A stretch of DNA of 41,400 nucleotides from Oscillospiraceae bacterium (GTDB taxonomy: Bacteria; Bacillota; Clostridia; Oscillospirales; Acutalibacteraceae): contig SVOQ01000023.1 of assembly GCA_015066345.1 (NCBI GenBank), positions 1 to 41,400 of the forward strand, read 5' to 3'. The position numbers and the translations under genes were made by a program. The notes under the pieces are model-generated. The model made no database searches, was not told the DNA's origin, and saw nothing but the letters and a program-made list of their open reading frames with translations. This document shows positions 25,192 through 35,843 of this stretch, piece after piece; within the stretch, counting starts at the first letter, position 1; each line of letters starts with the position of its first letter.

Positions 25192-28100
25192 ATGAAAAAA
25201 TTATTGTCTGTTTTACTCAGTTTAAGTATTATATTTTCAAGTGTGAGTGTCGCTTCGGCACTTGATATTGAATTACCAAAAAGTCTCGATAACTTTACTG
25301 AAGATGTTACGGACTTAATTAATGAATACGAGGAGTCGGTTTCAGAGGAAGTTTTGCTTTTTTCCGCCGCGGATGATGGGACGGAAGAAACCGAACCCGC
25401 AGGTACTAACCGTTTGATTGTTAAATCATCAAGAAATATTGATACACTTAATGCTATTAATAGTGTCAGCGGTTACAATGACTTACATATTCTGCAGTTT
25501 GCAAATGAAACAGACTGTGATGCTGCATTTGAATATTATTCATCACTTTCCTATGTTCAATATGTACAAGAGGATGGTATTCTTACGGAAACCGCCATTG
25601 AAGAAACTGAAAATAGCTTTGTTGAAGCATCCGTTGGCACTTCAACCCAATATCAATCAGATATTTTCGGTTACACAAATGCTAAAAATAATATGGGCTC
25701 TGCTGAGGTTACCATTGCCGTTGTTGATACAGGTGTTCAGAATGACCACGAATACCTTGCGGGACGAGTTATACCCACGGGTTTTGACAGTGTAAACAAT
25801 GAATCCTGCTACGATAAGAGGGGACACGGTACACACGTTGCGGGTATCATTGTTGCAAACACCAAATCCAATGTTAAAATCAAGCCGTATAAGGTTATCG
25901 GTGATGACGGAACGGGTACTGATACCCAACTTTATCTTGGTATTCAGGCAGCTATTGAAGACGGAGTCGATATTATAAACCTCAGCCTTACAAGAAAAGG
26001 TGAAAGCGAGGTTGTTCACGAAGCAGTTACAAACGCTTATAACGCAGGTATTACAGTTGTTGCCGCCGCAGGTAATGATAACGAAAACCTTAACGAAACA
26101 TTCTACACTCCCGCCTGTTTCGATGAAGTTATTTGTGTTGTTAATATTGATGTTAACAAAAAACGTTCAAGCACTTCTAACTGGAGGTTTAATGATACAT
26201 TATCTGCTCCGGGTGTTGATATTTTAAGCTCGTATGTTGGCGATACATTTAAAGTTATGTCGGGTACGTCAATGGCGGCACCCTTTATATCCTGTTGCGT
26301 TGCGTATTTATTGGCATCGGGTGATTACTATTCTCCCGATGAAGCGTATACTAAATTGTATGAAAGCTCCCTGGTCGGTGCAACCGCGAGTATACATTAC
26401 GTTGTACCGGGTGAGGTTATTAACAGTACAAGCACTTGTGCTACACCGGTGTTTACTTATGATTCAGGTACGTTTTCGGGTTATCTGAACGTTAAAATCA
26501 CCTGTGCAACTCCGGGTGCTACTATTATGTACCATACCTCAGACATGAACTCTAACACGTATTATGAATATACGGGACCTATCCGAATAGAGGAATCTGA
26601 GTCCTTTACCGCTTTAGCTTTTTGTAAAAATTATAAAACAAGTGCTATTGCGAGTGTATCATATACAAAATCAGATATTGATACATCAATGTTCATACTT
26701 GATGAAAATGACACTCTTATCGGTTATACAGGCACAGCTACTACCGTTACAGTACCCGGCTATTTTAACGGTGGTTGTGTAAGAGAAATTGCCGCCTCTG
26801 CTTTCAGCGGTAATACAAATATACAGAAAATTACTCTCAACAGTGCTACCACTACCATAGGCGAAGGAGCATTTGAGGGTTGTACCGCCCTTACCACCGT
26901 ATCAGGAGCCGGTGTCACTGATATTGAAGCAAAGGCTTTCAAAGATTGTTCTTCACTGACGACTGTTACTATGGCGGCACTTCTTACAATAGGCAACAGG
27001 GCTTTTTCGGGATGCACGGCTCTGACAACGCTCAAACTCAGTAAGCTCAATACAATCGGTGCCTATGCATTTGAAAACTCAGGTATCAGTACCTTAACCG
27101 CAACAAGGCTAACAACAATTGGTGACGGTGCTTTCTATGGAAGTGCAATTAAAAGTATATCTTTTACACCTGTTACAACCATTGGTGCTAATGCATTTGA
27201 AAAATGTAATAACCTGACTTCTCTCAGTCTGACTAACAAAATTACGGCATTGGGCGATTACGCTTTCAGCGGTTGTGAAAACCTTGCGAGTGTCACTCTT
27301 ACAGGAATTACTACCCTCGGTAACGGCATATTCAAGGATTGTAAATCATTGTCAACCATTACCGCAAGTAGTCTTACAAAAATCGGGGACTATACCTTCA
27401 GTGGTTGTATCGCTTTAGATACCTTTGATATTGCACACTTAACAACTGTCGGTAATTATGCTTTTTTCGGTTGTTCGGCTATTATAGAATTGAAGACTAC
27501 CGATTTTCCTGAATTAACAACTATTGGTGATTATGCTTTTGCCGAATCAGGACTTGAAAGCCTTAAGATATCCGTGGCATATACCCTTGGTTACAAAGCC
27601 TTCGGTGATTGTTCAGAGTTAAAAGGTGTTTCATTTCCTGACATAACTGAGTTTGATGCGAGTGTTTTGGAGGGTAGCGTAAATATTGAAAGATTAGAAT
27701 TCCAAAAGGCTGAAGTATTTGACTTTGGTGACGGTAGACTTGCGGACTTTTTCCCGAATCTTGTGAGCTTTACGGCTAAGTTTACTGAGATTCCTGACTA
27801 TTTCTTCGCGGGTTGCAGTAAGCTTTCCGAGGTTAACGTAGGCGGGGCAACACACATAGGTGCTCATGCATTTAGCGGTACGGCAATTAAAACCGTAAAT
27901 TTCAGTAATGCAACAACCTTTGGCGAGTGTGCCTTCGGCGATATGCCCGCCCTTGAGAACGTAACCCTTAACACTGATACAATTGACTTCTCAATTTTTG
28001 AGGGCTCAACAAATGTTAAGAGTTTTACAATGAGAAATTTGCTTGAATTCCCCGAGGGATTCAGGTGCTACGATGTTTTCCCGAATATAGAGACGCTTCA

Positions 28101-30792
28101 ATTAGATTTAATAAAAGATATTCCCGATTACACCTTTAAAGGGTGCAGTAAGCTCACGGGTTTTGATTTCTTTGATGTTGAAACCGTCGGTTACGAGGCG
28201 TTTTGCGGTACGGCTGTAAATAATCCCTATTTTTCCAACGTTATTTCCATTGGTGAAAGAGCCTTCGCTGATTGTACAAATCTCGGTGAATTTTCCGTTG
28301 CGGGGCTTGTTGATATAAATATGAATATATTAGAGAACAGTGAGCATACCGTAACAGATTTGAACCTGAACTATATTACATTTGAGGAATCACCCAACTA
28401 CGGTAAGCTTGATTTTCAGAAGTTTATTAACCTTGAGTCCATCGGAATTAATGAGCTTAAGGATATTCCTGCCTATGCATTCAGAAATCTATCCAAATTA
28501 AATCAGGTGTATATGAGCGATTGCGAAACTATAGGTGCTTTTGCTTTTGAAAATTGTACGTCGTTACAAACTTTTGAGTTTTCTAATATTAAAACCATCG
28601 GTTCAAGAGCCTTTGCAGGTTGTACAGGTCTTGAAAACTTCAAGGCAAATAAGCTGACAAGCTTTTCTGCTGATGCGTTTGTGGGCTGTACAAGTCTTAA
28701 AACTATGGACTTGGGCAATATAAGTAAGCTACCCGTTGACGGTAACGGAAGATTCCAGTTAGTGGGTGTGGATAATCTTGAAAGTCTCACTGCAAACACA
28801 ATAGAAACTATTCCCGCTAATTTCCTTAAAGGCTATCATAAACTTAAAACAGTTAGCTTTAAAAGTGCCGAAGATGTCGGTGACTATGCTTTCTATGACA
28901 CGTCTCTTTCAAGTTACACAATTCCCTATGCCCAGACTATCGGTGATTATGCCTTTTACGGAACCAATATTGAGACAGTTGATTTTTCGGAAATCACTGC
29001 CGTAGGAAGCTATGCCTTTGCTGACTGTGATAAACTGGAGGAGGTTAACATTTCCTATCAGATTACCGTCGGTGACGGTGCCTTCGCAAATTGCGATGTG
29101 CTTTCGGCGATTACTCTGAGTAATGTAAAGGACATACCGGCAAACGTAATTGAGGGTTGTCCCAAGATTGTTGTTATTGATTTTACTCAGATTACGGAGC
29201 TTCCCGTGAGTGAGAACGGCACTACCTACGTAAGCGACAAGCCTCTTCTTAATGAATTTCTTGCGGACTACGTTACAAGCGTACCCGACGATTATTTCAG
29301 CAATAATCCCGAGCTTTACAACGTATATATGCCGAGTCTCGAATACGTCGGTGACAGAGCTTTTATGAACACCTCTATTCAGGAATACCCCTCGGACTAT
29401 ATTGTTTCCATCGGCGATTATGCATTCAGCGGAACAGCACTCAAAAAGGCTTATAACAACTGCGTGGAAGAAGTGGGGGATTATGCTTTCAAGGACTGTA
29501 AAGCCTTGACTAATGCTAAAATTTACAACGAAAACGGCGATTTTAAGTTAGGTGTGGGTGTTTTCGAGAACTGCACAAGCCTTACGAGTGTTGCCCTGTA
29601 TAAGGATGCGGTTGAATTACCCGCTTATACTTTTAAAAATTGCGTTAAACTAAAAGAGGTTCATAATAAGGCTACCTTCGGTGGCAACACTATCGACCCG
29701 GAGCTTCTTTTGAATTTCAAATCAATCGGAGATGAAGCATTTTACGGCTGTGAGGCTATGAGCTATGCCAAAATCAAGCTTGATAACGTTGAATATCTCG
29801 GTGACAATGCTTTGGAAGGGGTAGAAAATCAACTTAAAGATAATGAGCTTGTTTTACCTCAGCTTAAATATCTCGGTGAGGATGCCTTCGGTGAAACGTA
29901 TATATTCAGATTAGCTCTGGAAAACGTTGAGATTGTTAAGGGCTTACCCGATTGCGGATACGTTGTTATAGGCTCTGATATAAGGGAATTCAGCTGTGAC
30001 AGAACCGAACCCTTAATCTGCGCCTACAAGGACAGCGTTGTGGCTGATTTCTGCCGTGAAAACGCATTAACAAATTTCCGTGCATATAACAGTACCGATG
30101 CAGTTTACTGTGATGTTGAGTCCGCACTTACGGATTACGGCCAGGTTCTTGCATTTTATCCTATGGGCTTTGATGTTACCTATGAGTGGTATGCCTGCAA
30201 CAAGGCTGACAGAAGCGACTCGGTATTGATTAAAACAACCCTTGAACACCCTTATGCGATTGATCCTATGTCAATGTTTGCGCAGTACAATCTTGAAAAT
30301 AAGTATAGATATTTCTACTGTGTTGCCACAAGTACAGAAAACGGTAATGTTCTTAAAATACAGAGTGGTCTTTGCAGAAATGTCTTTGCAAGCATTAAGG
30401 GTACAGAGGATACTGCCATTGATTTTGATAAGGGCTTGATTTATACACATAGTCTTAACAATATCAACACACTTAAAAATATATTCACCGTTAACGGTGA
30501 TGTAAGGGTAACGCCATCCCACAAAAACGGAACTGATAATTATTACGGTACAGGTACCGTGGTTGAATTGTTAGAAGGTAATAATGTTGCCTTTACACAA
30601 ACCATTGTAGTTTTCGGTGACATAAACGGTGACAGTATTGTTGACGTGCTTGATGTTTCCGAAATTGAAAAAGCATCAAATAACAATTCAGCACTTGAAG
30701 GTCACTATGAAGCCGCAGCAGATATCAACAGAAGCGGTCAGATAGATGTTTTAGACTATCAGGCATCAATAAATAAAGCGTTAGCAAGTTAA
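25192..30792 (+). CDS. Secreted subtilisin-like protease with BspA leucine-rich repeats and dockerin
   Basis: An 1866-residue secreted protein. The ribosome site AGGGAGGGAGTGATG gives start 25192. In order: signal peptide (about 1-23), pro-region, and an S8 protease domain with Asp179 (VVDTG), His212 (HGTHVAG), Asn295 and Ser360 (GTSMAAP). Next is a chitobiase-type beta module (about 417-500, TPGATIMYHTS), then roughly 1000 residues of BspA-type leucine-rich repeats (AFSGC/AFxGCTxL units). Last are an Ig-like stretch and a type I dockerin at about 1808-1866 with loops DINGDSIVDVLD and DINRSGQIDVLD. The repeat block shows a larger unit of about 110 residues. It probably binds a cohesin on the cell surface or a scaffold and cleaves protein nearby. 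No sortase motif is seen. Confidence 0.95.
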   Translation: MKKLLSVLLSLSIIFSSVSVASALDIELPKSLDNFTEDVTDLINEYEESVSEEVLLFSAADDGTEETEPAGTNRLIVKSSRNIDTLNAINSVSGYNDLHILQFANETDCDAAFEYYSSLSYVQYVQEDGILTETAIEETENSFVEASVGTSTQYQSDIFGYTNAKNNMGSAEVTIAVVDTGVQNDHEYLAGRVIPTGFDSVNNESCYDKRGHGTHVAGIIVANTKSNVKIKPYKVIGDDGTGTDTQLYLGIQAAIEDGVDIINLSLTRKGESEVVHEAVTNAYNAGITVVAAAGNDNENLNETFYTPACFDEVICVVNIDVNKKRSSTSNWRFNDTLSAPGVDILSSYVGDTFKVMSGTSMAAPFISCCVAYLLASGDYYSPDEAYTKLYESSLVGATASIHYVVPGEVINSTSTCATPVFTYDSGTFSGYLNVKITCATPGATIMYHTSDMNSNTYYEYTGPIRIEESESFTALAFCKNYKTSAIASVSYTKSDIDTSMFILDENDTLIGYTGTATTVTVPGYFNGGCVREIAASAFSGNTNIQKITLNSATTTIGEGAFEGCTALTTVSGAGVTDIEAKAFKDCSSLTTVTMAALLTIGNRAFSGCTALTTLKLSKLNTIGAYAFENSGISTLTATRLTTIGDGAFYGSAIKSISFTPVTTIGANAFEKCNNLTSLSLTNKITALGDYAFSGCENLASVTLTGITTLGNGIFKDCKSLSTITASSLTKIGDYTFSGCIALDTFDIAHLTTVGNYAFFGCSAIIELKTTDFPELTTIGDYAFAESGLESLKISVAYTLGYKAFGDCSELKGVSFPDITEFDASVLEGSVNIERLEFQKAEVFDFGDGRLADFFPNLVSFTAKFTEIPDYFFAGCSKLSEVNVGGATHIGAHAFSGTAIKTVNFSNATTFGECAFGDMPALENVTLNTDTIDFSIFEGSTNVKSFTMRNLLEFPEGFRCYDVFPNIETLQLDLIKDIPDYTFKGCSKLTGFDFFDVETVGYEAFCGTAVNNPYFSNVISIGERAFADCTNLGEFSVAGLVDINMNILENSEHTVTDLNLNYITFEESPNYGKLDFQKFINLESIGINELKDIPAYAFRNLSKLNQVYMSDCETIGAFAFENCTSLQTFEFSNIKTIGSRAFAGCTGLENFKANKLTSFSADAFVGCTSLKTMDLGNISKLPVDGNGRFQLVGVDNLESLTANTIETIPANFLKGYHKLKTVSFKSAEDVGDYAFYDTSLSSYTIPYAQTIGDYAFYGTNIETVDFSEITAVGSYAFADCDKLEEVNISYQITVGDGAFANCDVLSAITLSNVKDIPANVIEGCPKIVVIDFTQITELPVSENGTTYVSDKPLLNEFLADYVTSVPDDYFSNNPELYNVYMPSLEYVGDRAFMNTSIQEYPSDYIVSIGDYAFSGTALKKAYNNCVEEVGDYAFKDCKALTNAKIYNENGDFKLGVGVFENCTSLTSVALYKDAVELPAYTFKNCVKLKEVHNKATFGGNTIDPELLLNFKSIGDEAFYGCEAMSYAKIKLDNVEYLGDNALEGVENQLKDNELVLPQLKYLGEDAFGETYIFRLALENVEIVKGLPDCGYVVIGSDIREFSCDRTEPLICAYKDSVVADFCRENALTNFRAYNSTDAVYCDVESALTDYGQVLAFYPMGFDVTYEWYACNKADRSDSVLIKTTLEHPYAIDPMSMFAQYNLENKYRYFYCVATSTENGNVLKIQSGLCRNVFASIKGTEDTAIDFDKGLIYTHSLNNINTLKNIFTVNGDVRVTPSHKNGTDNYYGTGTVVELLEGNNVAFTQTIVVFGDINGDSIVDVLDVSEIEKASNNNSALEGHYEAAADINRSGQIDVLDYQASINKALAS

Positions 30793-33564: not shown

Positions 33565-33593
33565 ATTATATTACAAATGTATATAATTGTCAA
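33565..33593 (-). promoter_or_regulatory. Consensus promoter of tyrS
   Basis: On the minus strand: TTGACA, exactly 17 nt, TATAAT. Both hexamers are perfect. Confidence 0.9.
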
Positions 33594-33611
33594 ATGTTAA
33601 TTTAGTTTCGC

Positions 33612-33703
33612 GTTTCGCAAAGCGAAACATATGGCACCGAAGGTATATCGCGTACGAAGTACATATCGCATACGAAGTATATATCGCACCCGAAGGGTAT
33701 AAA
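33612..33703. repeat. Hairpin array with ATATCGC linkers and GAA loops
   Basis: After GTTTCGC/GCGAAAC (33612-33628) come four units at an 18-bp period. A 7-nt linker (first ATATGGC, then ATATCGC three times) is followed by an inverted repeat with loop GAA: ACC/GGT (33636-33644), GTAC/GTAC (33652-33662), ATAC/GTAT (33670-33680) and ACCC/GGGT (33688-33698). Arms differ while pairing is kept. Confidence 0.9.
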
Positions 33704-33741
33704 GGGTAGTTCTCTTTCTGTTTTTCTTCAGTTCGATAGAA
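33704..33741 (+). repeat. 38-bp direct repeat, copy 1
   Basis: Starts GGGTAGTTCTCTT and ends CGATAGAA. It matches 33860-33897 except for a few bases (TTCTGTT versus TGCGGTT, CGAT versus AGAT). It contains the same GAGAACTACCC sequence, inverted, as the end of the 109-bp repeat. Confidence 0.8.
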
Positions 33742-33859: not shown

Positions 33860-33878
33860 GGGTAGTTCTCTTGCGGTT
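33834..33878 (-). repeat. Short inverted version of the 109-bp repeat
   Basis: On the minus strand it reads from ACCGCAAGAGAACTACCC to GCGGTCCCCCTCCCT, i.e. both ends of copy A joined with about 63 bp of middle missing. This supports an element whose termini are the conserved part. Confidence 0.8.
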
Positions 33879-33897
33879 ATTCTTCAGTTAGATAGAA
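33860..33897 (+). repeat. 38-bp direct repeat, copy 2
   Basis: Second copy of 33704-33741, 156 bp further on. Confidence 0.8.
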
Positions 33898-34281: not shown

Positions 34282-35001
34282 ATGAAGGAAAGAAAAAGTT
34301 TTTTATTTTATTATGATTGGTTTAATGTTTTAAAAAACCCGAACTATAGTCAGGTGGGCAGAGTAGTAATGGCAATAGAAGAATACGAAAAAAGTGGTAT
34401 TGAACCACAATTTCGTGATTCAACATCTAAAATTGCATTTACGGTAATATCAAATACATTGATAAGAGATGCTGAAAAGTACGAGAAAAAATGTCTTAAA
34501 AATGCAGAGAACGCACGAAAGAGATGGGACAATAATGCGAACGTATACGAACGCATAAACGAAAATGCGAATTATGCCGATAAAGAAAGAGATAAAGATA
34601 AAGATAAAGATAAAGAAAAAGACACAGACAGAGATATAGAAAAAGATAGTATATCTTCTTCGTTTTCTTCGAAAACGGTGTGTGAGTACAGTGATGATTT
34701 TCTCGATTTCTGGAAGGAATATCCTAAAAAAGTCGGTAAGGGTGACGCATTTAAAAAGTGGAAAAAAGCGAAGCTTACCAATACTGATAAAACAGATATT
34801 ATGAATGCACTTAATTGGCAGAAAAAGAGTGACAGATGGCGTAATGATTACGGCAGGTTTATTCCAAACCCGTCAACATATATTTCCCAAAGACGGTGGG
34901 AGGACGAGCCTGATTTGAATTTTAATTCGGATATTACAGACCCGAGCAGATATACTGACGGGGACACATTACCTGATTTTATATTGAGAGGTGATTATTA
35001 A
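34282..35001 (+). CDS. Phage-type replisome organizer (DUF6291-like)
   Basis: A 239-residue protein. The N-terminal part (KSFLFYYDWFNVLKNPNYSQVGRVVMAIEEYE ... KYEKKCLKNAENARKRW) matches the DUF6291-type start of phage replication proteins. A highly charged linker KDKDKDKEKD is coded by four exact GATAAA hexamers (34591-34614). The C-terminal part has FWKEYPKKVGKGDAFKKWKK and RFIPNPSTYISQRRWEDEP, as in phage replisome organizers that recruit the helicase loader. Start ATG 34282 follows GAAGGAG. It overlaps the loader gene by one base. No capsid, integrase or terminase genes lie nearby, so this is a stand-alone module. Confidence 0.88.
   Translation: MKERKSFLFYYDWFNVLKNPNYSQVGRVVMAIEEYEKSGIEPQFRDSTSKIAFTVISNTLIRDAEKYEKKCLKNAENARKRWDNNANVYERINENANYADKERDKDKDKDKEKDTDRDIEKDSISSSFSSKTVCEYSDDFLDFWKEYPKKVGKGDAFKKWKKAKLTNTDKTDIMNALNWQKKSDRWRNDYGRFIPNPSTYISQRRWEDEPDLNFNSDITDPSRYTDGDTLPDFILRGDY
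34591..34614. repeat. GATAAA x4 microsatellite inside the replisome organizer gene
   Basis: Four exact GATAAA copies encode Asp-Lys repeats in the linker. Gain or loss of a unit would keep the frame and change only the linker length. Confidence 0.85.
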
Positions 35002-35810
35002 TGGTTAATCAAAGATTTTGTGCCGTATGCGGTAAGGAAAAGGAACAAAAACAAACGGGTTTTGGCAGTATCTGTATTTACATAGAGTGTGAATGTGAAA
35101 AGAAACTCAGGGAAGAAAAGGAGAAGAAAGACTCGGATTACGCCCTTAAAACCGCCGTAGAGCTGAGAAACAACAGTAGTCACCTTTCTCTCAGGGGACG
35201 TAATTCTTCCTTTAAAACGGCGGTTACGGACAAATACAACGAAACGGCTATAAGAGGTGGTAAATATCTGTTAAATCAACTAATGAACGGTGATACCGAG
35301 GACAAAAAGAACGGTCTCATACTTCAGGGTAACAGGGGTAGCGGTAAAACATATATTGCCTGTTGTGTTATTAATGATTTTAATAGTTCTTTACCCGTTA
35401 CTGATGAACGCAAAAGACTTATTATAAAAGAAAGAGATAACTCATTCTCTAAAAATGAGTTTACACCTATGAAATCGCCCTGTAAATTTATTTCTGAAAT
35501 GGATTTATACAGTCTTTTTTACGATAATTTTAACTACTGTAAGGTTAACGGACCTGTTGATGAATTTAAATCAGCCGAAAAATTACTTGTAATCGACGAT
35601 GTAGGCTCATTAAATTACGACAAAAACCGTATGCGTGATATGTATCTAAATATAATTGAATACCGCTATTCGGAGTGTTTACCTATTATGCTTACAACCA
35701 ACCTTACTAAACTCCAATTATCCGACTACCTGGGTGACAGGGTATTTGACCGCCTGAAATCCTGTTGTTATTTTTTAGATTTAATTTCACCTGAGAGCCG
35801 AAGAAACTGA
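35001..35810 (+). CDS. DnaC-like helicase loader ATPase
   Basis: A 269-residue AAA+ protein. An N-terminal zinc-finger-like segment (CAVCGKEKEQ ... CECEKK) precedes the ATPase core: Walker A GNRGSGKT near residue 110, Walker B LLVIDDVGS near residue 197 and sensor 1 TTNL near residue 235. These match DnaC/IstB-type loaders that place DnaB helicase on DNA. It starts on the last base of the replisome organizer stop (TAATG) with GAGAGGTGAT upstream, so the pair is translationally coupled. The loader could serve the chromosome or be a captured phage gene; there is no transposase next to it, so an IstB role is unlikely. Confidence 0.92.
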   Translation: MVNQRFCAVCGKEKEQKQTGFGSICIYIECECEKKLREEKEKKDSDYALKTAVELRNNSSHLSLRGRNSSFKTAVTDKYNETAIRGGKYLLNQLMNGDTEDKKNGLILQGNRGSGKTYIACCVINDFNSSLPVTDERKRLIIKERDNSFSKNEFTPMKSPCKFISEMDLYSLFYDNFNYCKVNGPVDEFKSAEKLLVIDDVGSLNYDKNRMRDMYLNIIEYRYSECLPIMLTTNLTKLQLSDYLGDRVFDRLKSCCYFLDLISPESRRN

Positions 35811-35843
35811 AAAAAATAATCAAAATCAAGTTACAAAAGTGTA

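Follow-up and report, generated by a model that had tools for sequence, protein, structure and literature searches.

A probable dispersed-family copy of a linker-joined hairpin array upstream of a tyrS-like promoter in an Oscillospiraceae genome

The array and its surroundings

The window, i.e. the whole stretch of DNA analysed (41,400 nucleotides from contig SVOQ01000023.1 of an Oscillospiraceae bacterium, assembly GCA_015066345.1), carries at 33612-33698 five hairpins with 7-nt linkers between them, as read from the sequence, and an 18-bp periodic array was called at the same site by Tandem Repeats Finder. A preliminary description of this DNA had reported hairpin units with varied but complementary arms, a shared linker and a GAA loop, and all of these are present as described. 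The period of 18 bp given there applies to the later units, while the first of the units described measures 16 bp; likewise, the span of 33612 to 33703 does contain the array, but the longer first hairpin had been overlooked. The features are as follows:

33607..33703, no strand: the whole repeat, a copy of family A (the longer matches in the same genome start at 33607)
33612..33628, no strand: hairpin 1, GTTTCGC-AAA-GCGAAAC, 7 bp, from sequence
33636..33644, no strand: hairpin 2, ACC-GAA-GGT, from sequence
33652..33662, no strand: hairpin 3, GTAC-GAA-GTAC, from sequence
33670..33680, no strand: hairpin 4, ATAC-GAA-GTAT, from sequence
33688..33698, no strand: hairpin 5, ACCC-GAA-GGGT, from sequence
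33629-33635 (ATATGGC) and 33645-33651, 33663-33669 and 33681-33687 (ATATCGC), plus strand: linkers, GCGATAT on the minus strand
33640..33705, minus strand: weak full-length match to Gut-1 (RF01706), 23.2 bits against a cut-off of 50 bits, E 0.2
33565..33593, minus strand: TTGACA-N17-TATAAT, a consensus promoter with the array on one side and the tyrS-like gene on the other
33704..33741, plus strand: GGGTAGTTCTC... dispersed repeat, which adjoins most of the family A copies shown; second copy at 33860-33897

The promoter matches the consensus in 12 of 12 positions, which is a match of sequence and not a mapped start site. Because it separates the array from the tyrS-like gene (tyrS, serS and rlmB are names read from protein sequences, without a family search), an mRNA started there does not include the array, and a tyrS leader or T-box was ruled out on the same ground. 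An Rfam scan found neither a T-box nor an rRNA match anywhere in the window. The proteins encoded next to the array are of the DUF6291 and IstB-like ATPase types. In the related genome G017 the tyrS-like gene is followed by a gene that is here separated from the array by the genes of these two proteins (34282-35810, the latter of the DnaC/IstB-like type); about 2.2 kb are extra here, perhaps derived from a phage. The DUF6291-type reading frame contains 11.7 copies of a GATAAA hexamer (34579-34648) which encode a run of charged residues. Elsewhere in the window there is an FMN riboswitch (RF00050, 38650-38764, 107.8 bits) and an open reading frame of 1866 amino acids (25192-30792).

When the window was compared with seven relatives by blastn, similarity stopped between 33573 and 33601 and resumed near 35830 in G017 and two others; the tyrS-like protein of G017 is 98% identical to the one encoded here. 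Inspection by eye of the 420 nt upstream of the tyrS-like start in the 14 relatives, these seven among them, in which this start could be located revealed no such array. The window array has no opposed array and no IVP gene (see below) and lies outside any IVP locus, and among the IVP matches of its own genome none falls on its contig (C33).

Copy number and complementarity of the arms

The preliminary description had proposed a search of the genome and its relatives for the pattern, with controls. In its strict form, ATATCGC-N-GAA-N-ATATCGC, the pattern matched exactly 17 times in the own genome and the reversed pattern not once, and when TATCGC words could be separated by any 3-33 nt, 58 matches were obtained against 2 for the reversed pattern, with the loops GAA, GTA, GTCA, TTC, AAC and others. 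Other assemblies have this type of array too: the strict form is present in 12 of the 22 genomes of the genus, this one included; family-wide it matched in 34 of 200 genomes, some of these being non-palindromic chance matches. At least three outer Watson-Crick pairs are formed in 60 of the 98 distinct spacers among the matches listed (the first 150 rows), compared with a mean of 2.1 (maximum 7) after shuffling of letters and a mean of 23.9 (maximum 36) when right halves were re-dealt among spacers of equal length. Of the spacers below this number, many are chance matches in G001 and G003, have stems of two pairs or carry a wobble as an outer pair. The matches of four further genomes were listed separately. 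The arms in other copies are thus complementary far above both controls, and pairing at the level of chance was not seen. Among the matches listed, hairpins were present in 23 of 37 from Firmicutes records, in 1 of 53 from other taxa and in 1 of 82 from viral contigs, so that outside Firmicutes records nearly all of the listed matches are due to chance (80 of at least 116 stretches from genome contigs and 80 of at least 120 from viral contigs were used, and taxon labels were read from record titles).

The window array itself, as family A, matches 12 places in its own genome, itself included (C46 counted once, C17 and C47 partial), and a second family of single arrays, family B, occupies five places. 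The loop of hairpin 1 differs among copies (AAA, TCT, GAA, TTT) with the arms unchanged. Family A copies usually adjoin the GGGTAGTTCTC repeat, which is itself dispersed and occurs without an array in about 25 places of the own genome besides those next to family A (40 of 59 candidates were scored); this repeat also neighbours other palindromic repeats of the GGTGGT/ACCACC kind. Copy C46, with GTACgaaGTAT, resembles a deletion hybrid of two adjacent units of the window type, and C59 of G017 repeats a two-unit block, ACC/ATC. Plain duplication and deletion of units therefore also contributes to the arrays.

Opposed arrays before IVP genes

Two loci of the own genome that have the linker of the window array surround a small gene which corresponds to 23S_rRNA_IVP (PF05635/TIGR02436), the protein's nearest solved chain being 2rld. 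Genes of this type (IVP or S23) were found in 20 of 22 genomes of the genus and in 54 of 120 genomes of the family, and many are preceded by two opposed arrays, with linkers on the right that are reverse-complementary to those on the left. The linkers vary by locus, e.g. ATATCGC, ATATCAC, ATTTCAC and ACATCAC. A reverse-complementary 6-mer with at least six copies is present in 47 of 79 leaders from the genus (80 of 96 IVP matches were fetched); shuffled leaders have one in 5 of 1580 cases and downstream regions in 3 of 78. Applied to a further 59 leaders (of 60 fetched from among those listed family-wide), of which 57 belong to other genera, the same test gave 30, against 0 of 1180 shuffles and 2 of 58 downstream regions; L191 and L323, with leaders under 200 nt, were dropped. 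This threshold was missed by 32 of the 79 and 29 of the 59 leaders, and at least five of those above it (L221, L224, L229, L309 and L321) have a lopsided layout in which one of the sides has just one copy, and may perhaps be simple repeats rather than double arrays.

Linkers in the two halves of a leader change together. In an independent test the recurrent 6-mer was taken from the right part alone, and at 38 of 87 loci its reverse complement is present at least twice in the left part, compared with a mean of 4.7 (maximum 11) for re-dealt left parts, and same-strand copies recur at least twice at 2 loci. Segments between linkers are complementary in 246 of 366 distinct cases, against means of 99 with halves swapped and 86 with letters shuffled. 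The linker design was found in leaders of 23 other genera of the family. This is in accordance with the proposal, made from the window array alone, that the ability to fold is kept and not the sequence, which is now supported in the genus as well as in other genera of the family. For L067, the predicted folding pairs linkers across. Where the first left hairpin varies (AAATCC/GGATTT or AAATTCC/GGAATTT), a third, central copy of its arm varies with it, so that an alternative long helix may be possible.

The site between the serS-like and rlmB-like genes differs in the presence or absence of arrays: a complete element lies behind the serS-like gene in G000 and G020, and in G011 (L339) the serS-like stop codon is followed by a double array without a gene, every linker of which is changed to TCGATAT/ATATCGA. 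No such array was seen by eye at the other 17 of the 20 serS-like sites read (of 22). At L067, L073 and L124-L127 the array that comes after the IVP stop codon closely repeats the left array found at that locus, in the manner of a long direct repeat; these arrays differ from locus to locus.

Mismatches within the hairpins of IVP leaders are unevenly distributed. On the gene strand 799 internal pairs from 235 distinct hairpins in 73 leaders (at least two linker copies per side were required) comprise 748 Watson-Crick pairs, 22 G-T, 5 A-C and 24 other mismatches (p 0.0015); counted by locus, G-T stands against A-C at 15 to 3, and an earlier parse gave 10 and 2. Cells with parsing flaws were kept in these counts, i.e. 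three of the five A-C come from a mis-parsed segment of L132, two of the 22 G-T from a segment of L124 outside the array and three from one hairpin of L115. RNA tolerates G-U and does not tolerate A-C, and therefore the excess of G-T over A-C indicates an RNA read in the direction of the gene. The gene strand is also predicted to be more stable than its complement in 38 of 59 IVP leaders (p 0.001; the single-array slices L152 and L157, cut on the other strand, were left out), though only slightly so, as the mean folding z of -5.2 for the gene strand is close to that of -5.0 for the antisense strand, both far better than shuffles. The preliminary description had named two possible causes for the joint change of arms, selection for structure or a copying process such as template switching. 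For the double arrays before IVP genes the wobble bias, gene-strand folding and linker covariation support the former, and the bias points to selection on RNA folding rather than to template switching, which is not needed to account for them.

For single arrays the evidence on strand is thin and conflicting. Their class, which includes the third arrays of IVP elements, shows 6 G-T, 2 A-C and 5 other mismatches in 46 distinct units, and the double class read on the ATATCGC strand, with left and right arrays mixed so that the count does not bear on strand, shows 7, 8 and 6 in 72. The few wobbles in units like those of families A and B (GCCgaaGGT, GTACgaaGTAT, GTACaacGTAT) favour the plus strand, one of them being explained by deletion of units, whereas the evidence from folding energy and from the weak Gut-1 match is for the minus strand: the window array folds no better than shuffled sequence on its plus strand (z -0.99) and better on its minus strand (z -3.06).

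Known systems and the probable origin of the window array

The known RNA closest in design is Gut-1, with which the array shares tandem short hairpins, a fixed 7-nt linker, several copies per genome and occurrence in gut bacteria. The window array has the three tandem hairpins, short loops and short linkers of Gut-1, and its minus strand aligns to the whole model (positions 1-77), though below the gathering score. It differs in being a single array of five hairpins with the linker GCGATAT/ATATCGC in place of GTGAAAT (GUGAAAU in the Gut-1 consensus), and the 77-nt Rfam model spans one half of a double array at the loci displayed. The Gut-1 cut-off was reached at 2 of 20 IVP loci scanned (L114 and L132), and 1 of 6 other single-array loci scanned gave a weak match (L069, 21.7 bits). 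Gut-1 matches were present in 66 of 150 family genomes (52 over the cut-off) and in 60 of 135 genera, with an E. coli genome, used as control, matching below the cut-off. They fall on arrays of the same design as those described here, and Gut-1 is one linker variant of these linker-joined hairpin arrays. Among the matches listed, 15 of 121 lie at most 700 nt from an IVP gene (ten precede it and four follow it on its own strand, and one precedes it on the other strand) and 106 do not, the fraction of the genome this close to an IVP gene being estimated at about 0.2%; the 121 come from 150 or so listed, in genomes up to G138, taken as those in both surveys. Thirteen of 30 Gut-1 loci start at most 50 nt from the 3' end of a tRNA or tmRNA on the same strand, and at 12 of 14 displayed loci a terminator-like hairpin ending in T was seen by eye just before the array. 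The Gut-1 double arrays of L588-L611 lie directly behind tRNA or tmRNA terminators, which resembles a target preference. ARAGORN placed a same-strand tRNA or tmRNA upstream in 13 of 17 IVP leaders with other linkers, a rate biased by partial preselection of loci in view of tRNA ends, and in 0 of 9 ATATCGC-type IVP loci, the choice of which was not blind. A table in the 2010 paper gives Gut-1 as probably not cis-regulatory and as found in human gut only, and a passage of it treats Gut-1 as free-standing RNA, recorded from environmental sequences only (PMC2864571).

Likeness to the intervening sequences (IVS) of 23S rRNA is found in the double-array elements, which carry a PF05635/TIGR02436 gene and so form a small element around one S23 gene. 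They differ in that a single 5S was the only rRNA in 20 IVP loci scanned, and the window array, which has no S23 gene, is not an insertion in 23S with an S23p reading frame. Passages of a 2016 paper describe heptamer repeats before the reading frame of the Coxiella IVS, call it a selfish element and give S23/IVP proteins no known function (PMC4990558). Our literature searches found no paper on the IVP link or on linker covariation, nothing relevant on the array type and no paper with the phrase "Gut-1 RNA". CRISPR loci have a constant repeat and unique non-palindromic spacers. The arrays share with them a regular alternation of constant and variable parts, but here the constant part has 7 nt and the variable parts are palindromic; the spacers of the window array, too, are self-complementary.

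We put at roughly 0.6 the probability that the window array is a copy of a dispersed non-coding family (A), most likely derived and non-autonomous, within a group of gut Clostridia hairpin arrays selected for RNA folding. An origin as the end or scar of a REP- or MITE-like mobile element, whose transposase would recognise hairpins of single-stranded DNA and which would have no role as RNA, is unlikely, although several observations agree with it: the repeat occupies twelve places in one genome, it was not seen at the orthologous site of the relatives compared, near-identical arrays flank the gene on both sides at several ATATCGC-type IVP loci, and arrays come and go between the serS-like and rlmB-like genes. 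REP sequences are conserved palindromes in genomes with a RAYT (Y1) transposase; the arrays are, like REP and REPIN, dispersed palindromic intergenic DNA of variable copy number, but their arms vary between units whereas pairing and linker persist, and the wobble bias in IVP leaders also argues against this origin.

Rewriting at the level of DNA, in which hairpins would form on single-stranded replicating DNA and template switching would copy one arm from the other without selection, seems improbable. It would fit the mostly perfect arms (748 of 799 internal pairs in IVP leaders) and the loops, many of which, in the ATATCGC orientation, read C(GAA)G, an unusually stable minihairpin loop in DNA. 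However, template switching predicts no strand bias, contrary to the 22 G-T against 5 A-C in IVP leaders and to the better folding of the gene strand in 38 of the 59, and a local process leaves unexplained why linkers covary between opposite halves of a leader. Least probable of all is an inconsequential tandem repeat of the ordinary kind, in which a palindromic unit was duplicated and then decays: duplication and deletion of units are visible in the C46 hybrid and the blocks of G017, yet decay would break the pairing that 60 of the 98 distinct spacers among the matches listed retain, and the same linker design recurs in the 23 other genera.

On this reading, the fullest form of the group is two opposed arrays before an IVP/S23 gene, the product of which is a four-helix bundle. 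Linkers of the left array would pair with those of the right array to give a rod-like fold in which hairpins branch off at the junctions between 7-bp helices, and the IVP protein may act on this RNA. Arms, loops and even linkers would drift and the opposite side would change to match, the folded RNA of the double array probably being the selected trait, with new units arising by duplication and deletion of whole units. The copy in the window, upstream of the tyrS-like promoter, would then be an insertion specific to this species as far as compared, a non-autonomous single-array derivative whose folding had been shaped in the parental family. Single arrays may in general be mobile derivatives, where "mobile" refers only to presence/absence and copy number. 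A wider and more speculative proposal, which we hold as tentative and rather doubtful, is that Gut-1 and its linker variants are small mobile RNA elements with opposed arrays as a ladder of junctions, many inserted behind tRNA or tmRNA terminators, some with an S23 protein that binds the ladder, and single arrays as their non-autonomous remains.

If this last proposal is true, a change of linker throughout an element would mean that eight or so sites are rewritten together in a coordinated way. The link between part of the S23/IVP proteins and part of Gut-1, with its covarying design, would give both a partner that can be tested, and the many natural variants, in which folding persists and other features change, could serve directly as data for measuring compensatory evolution.
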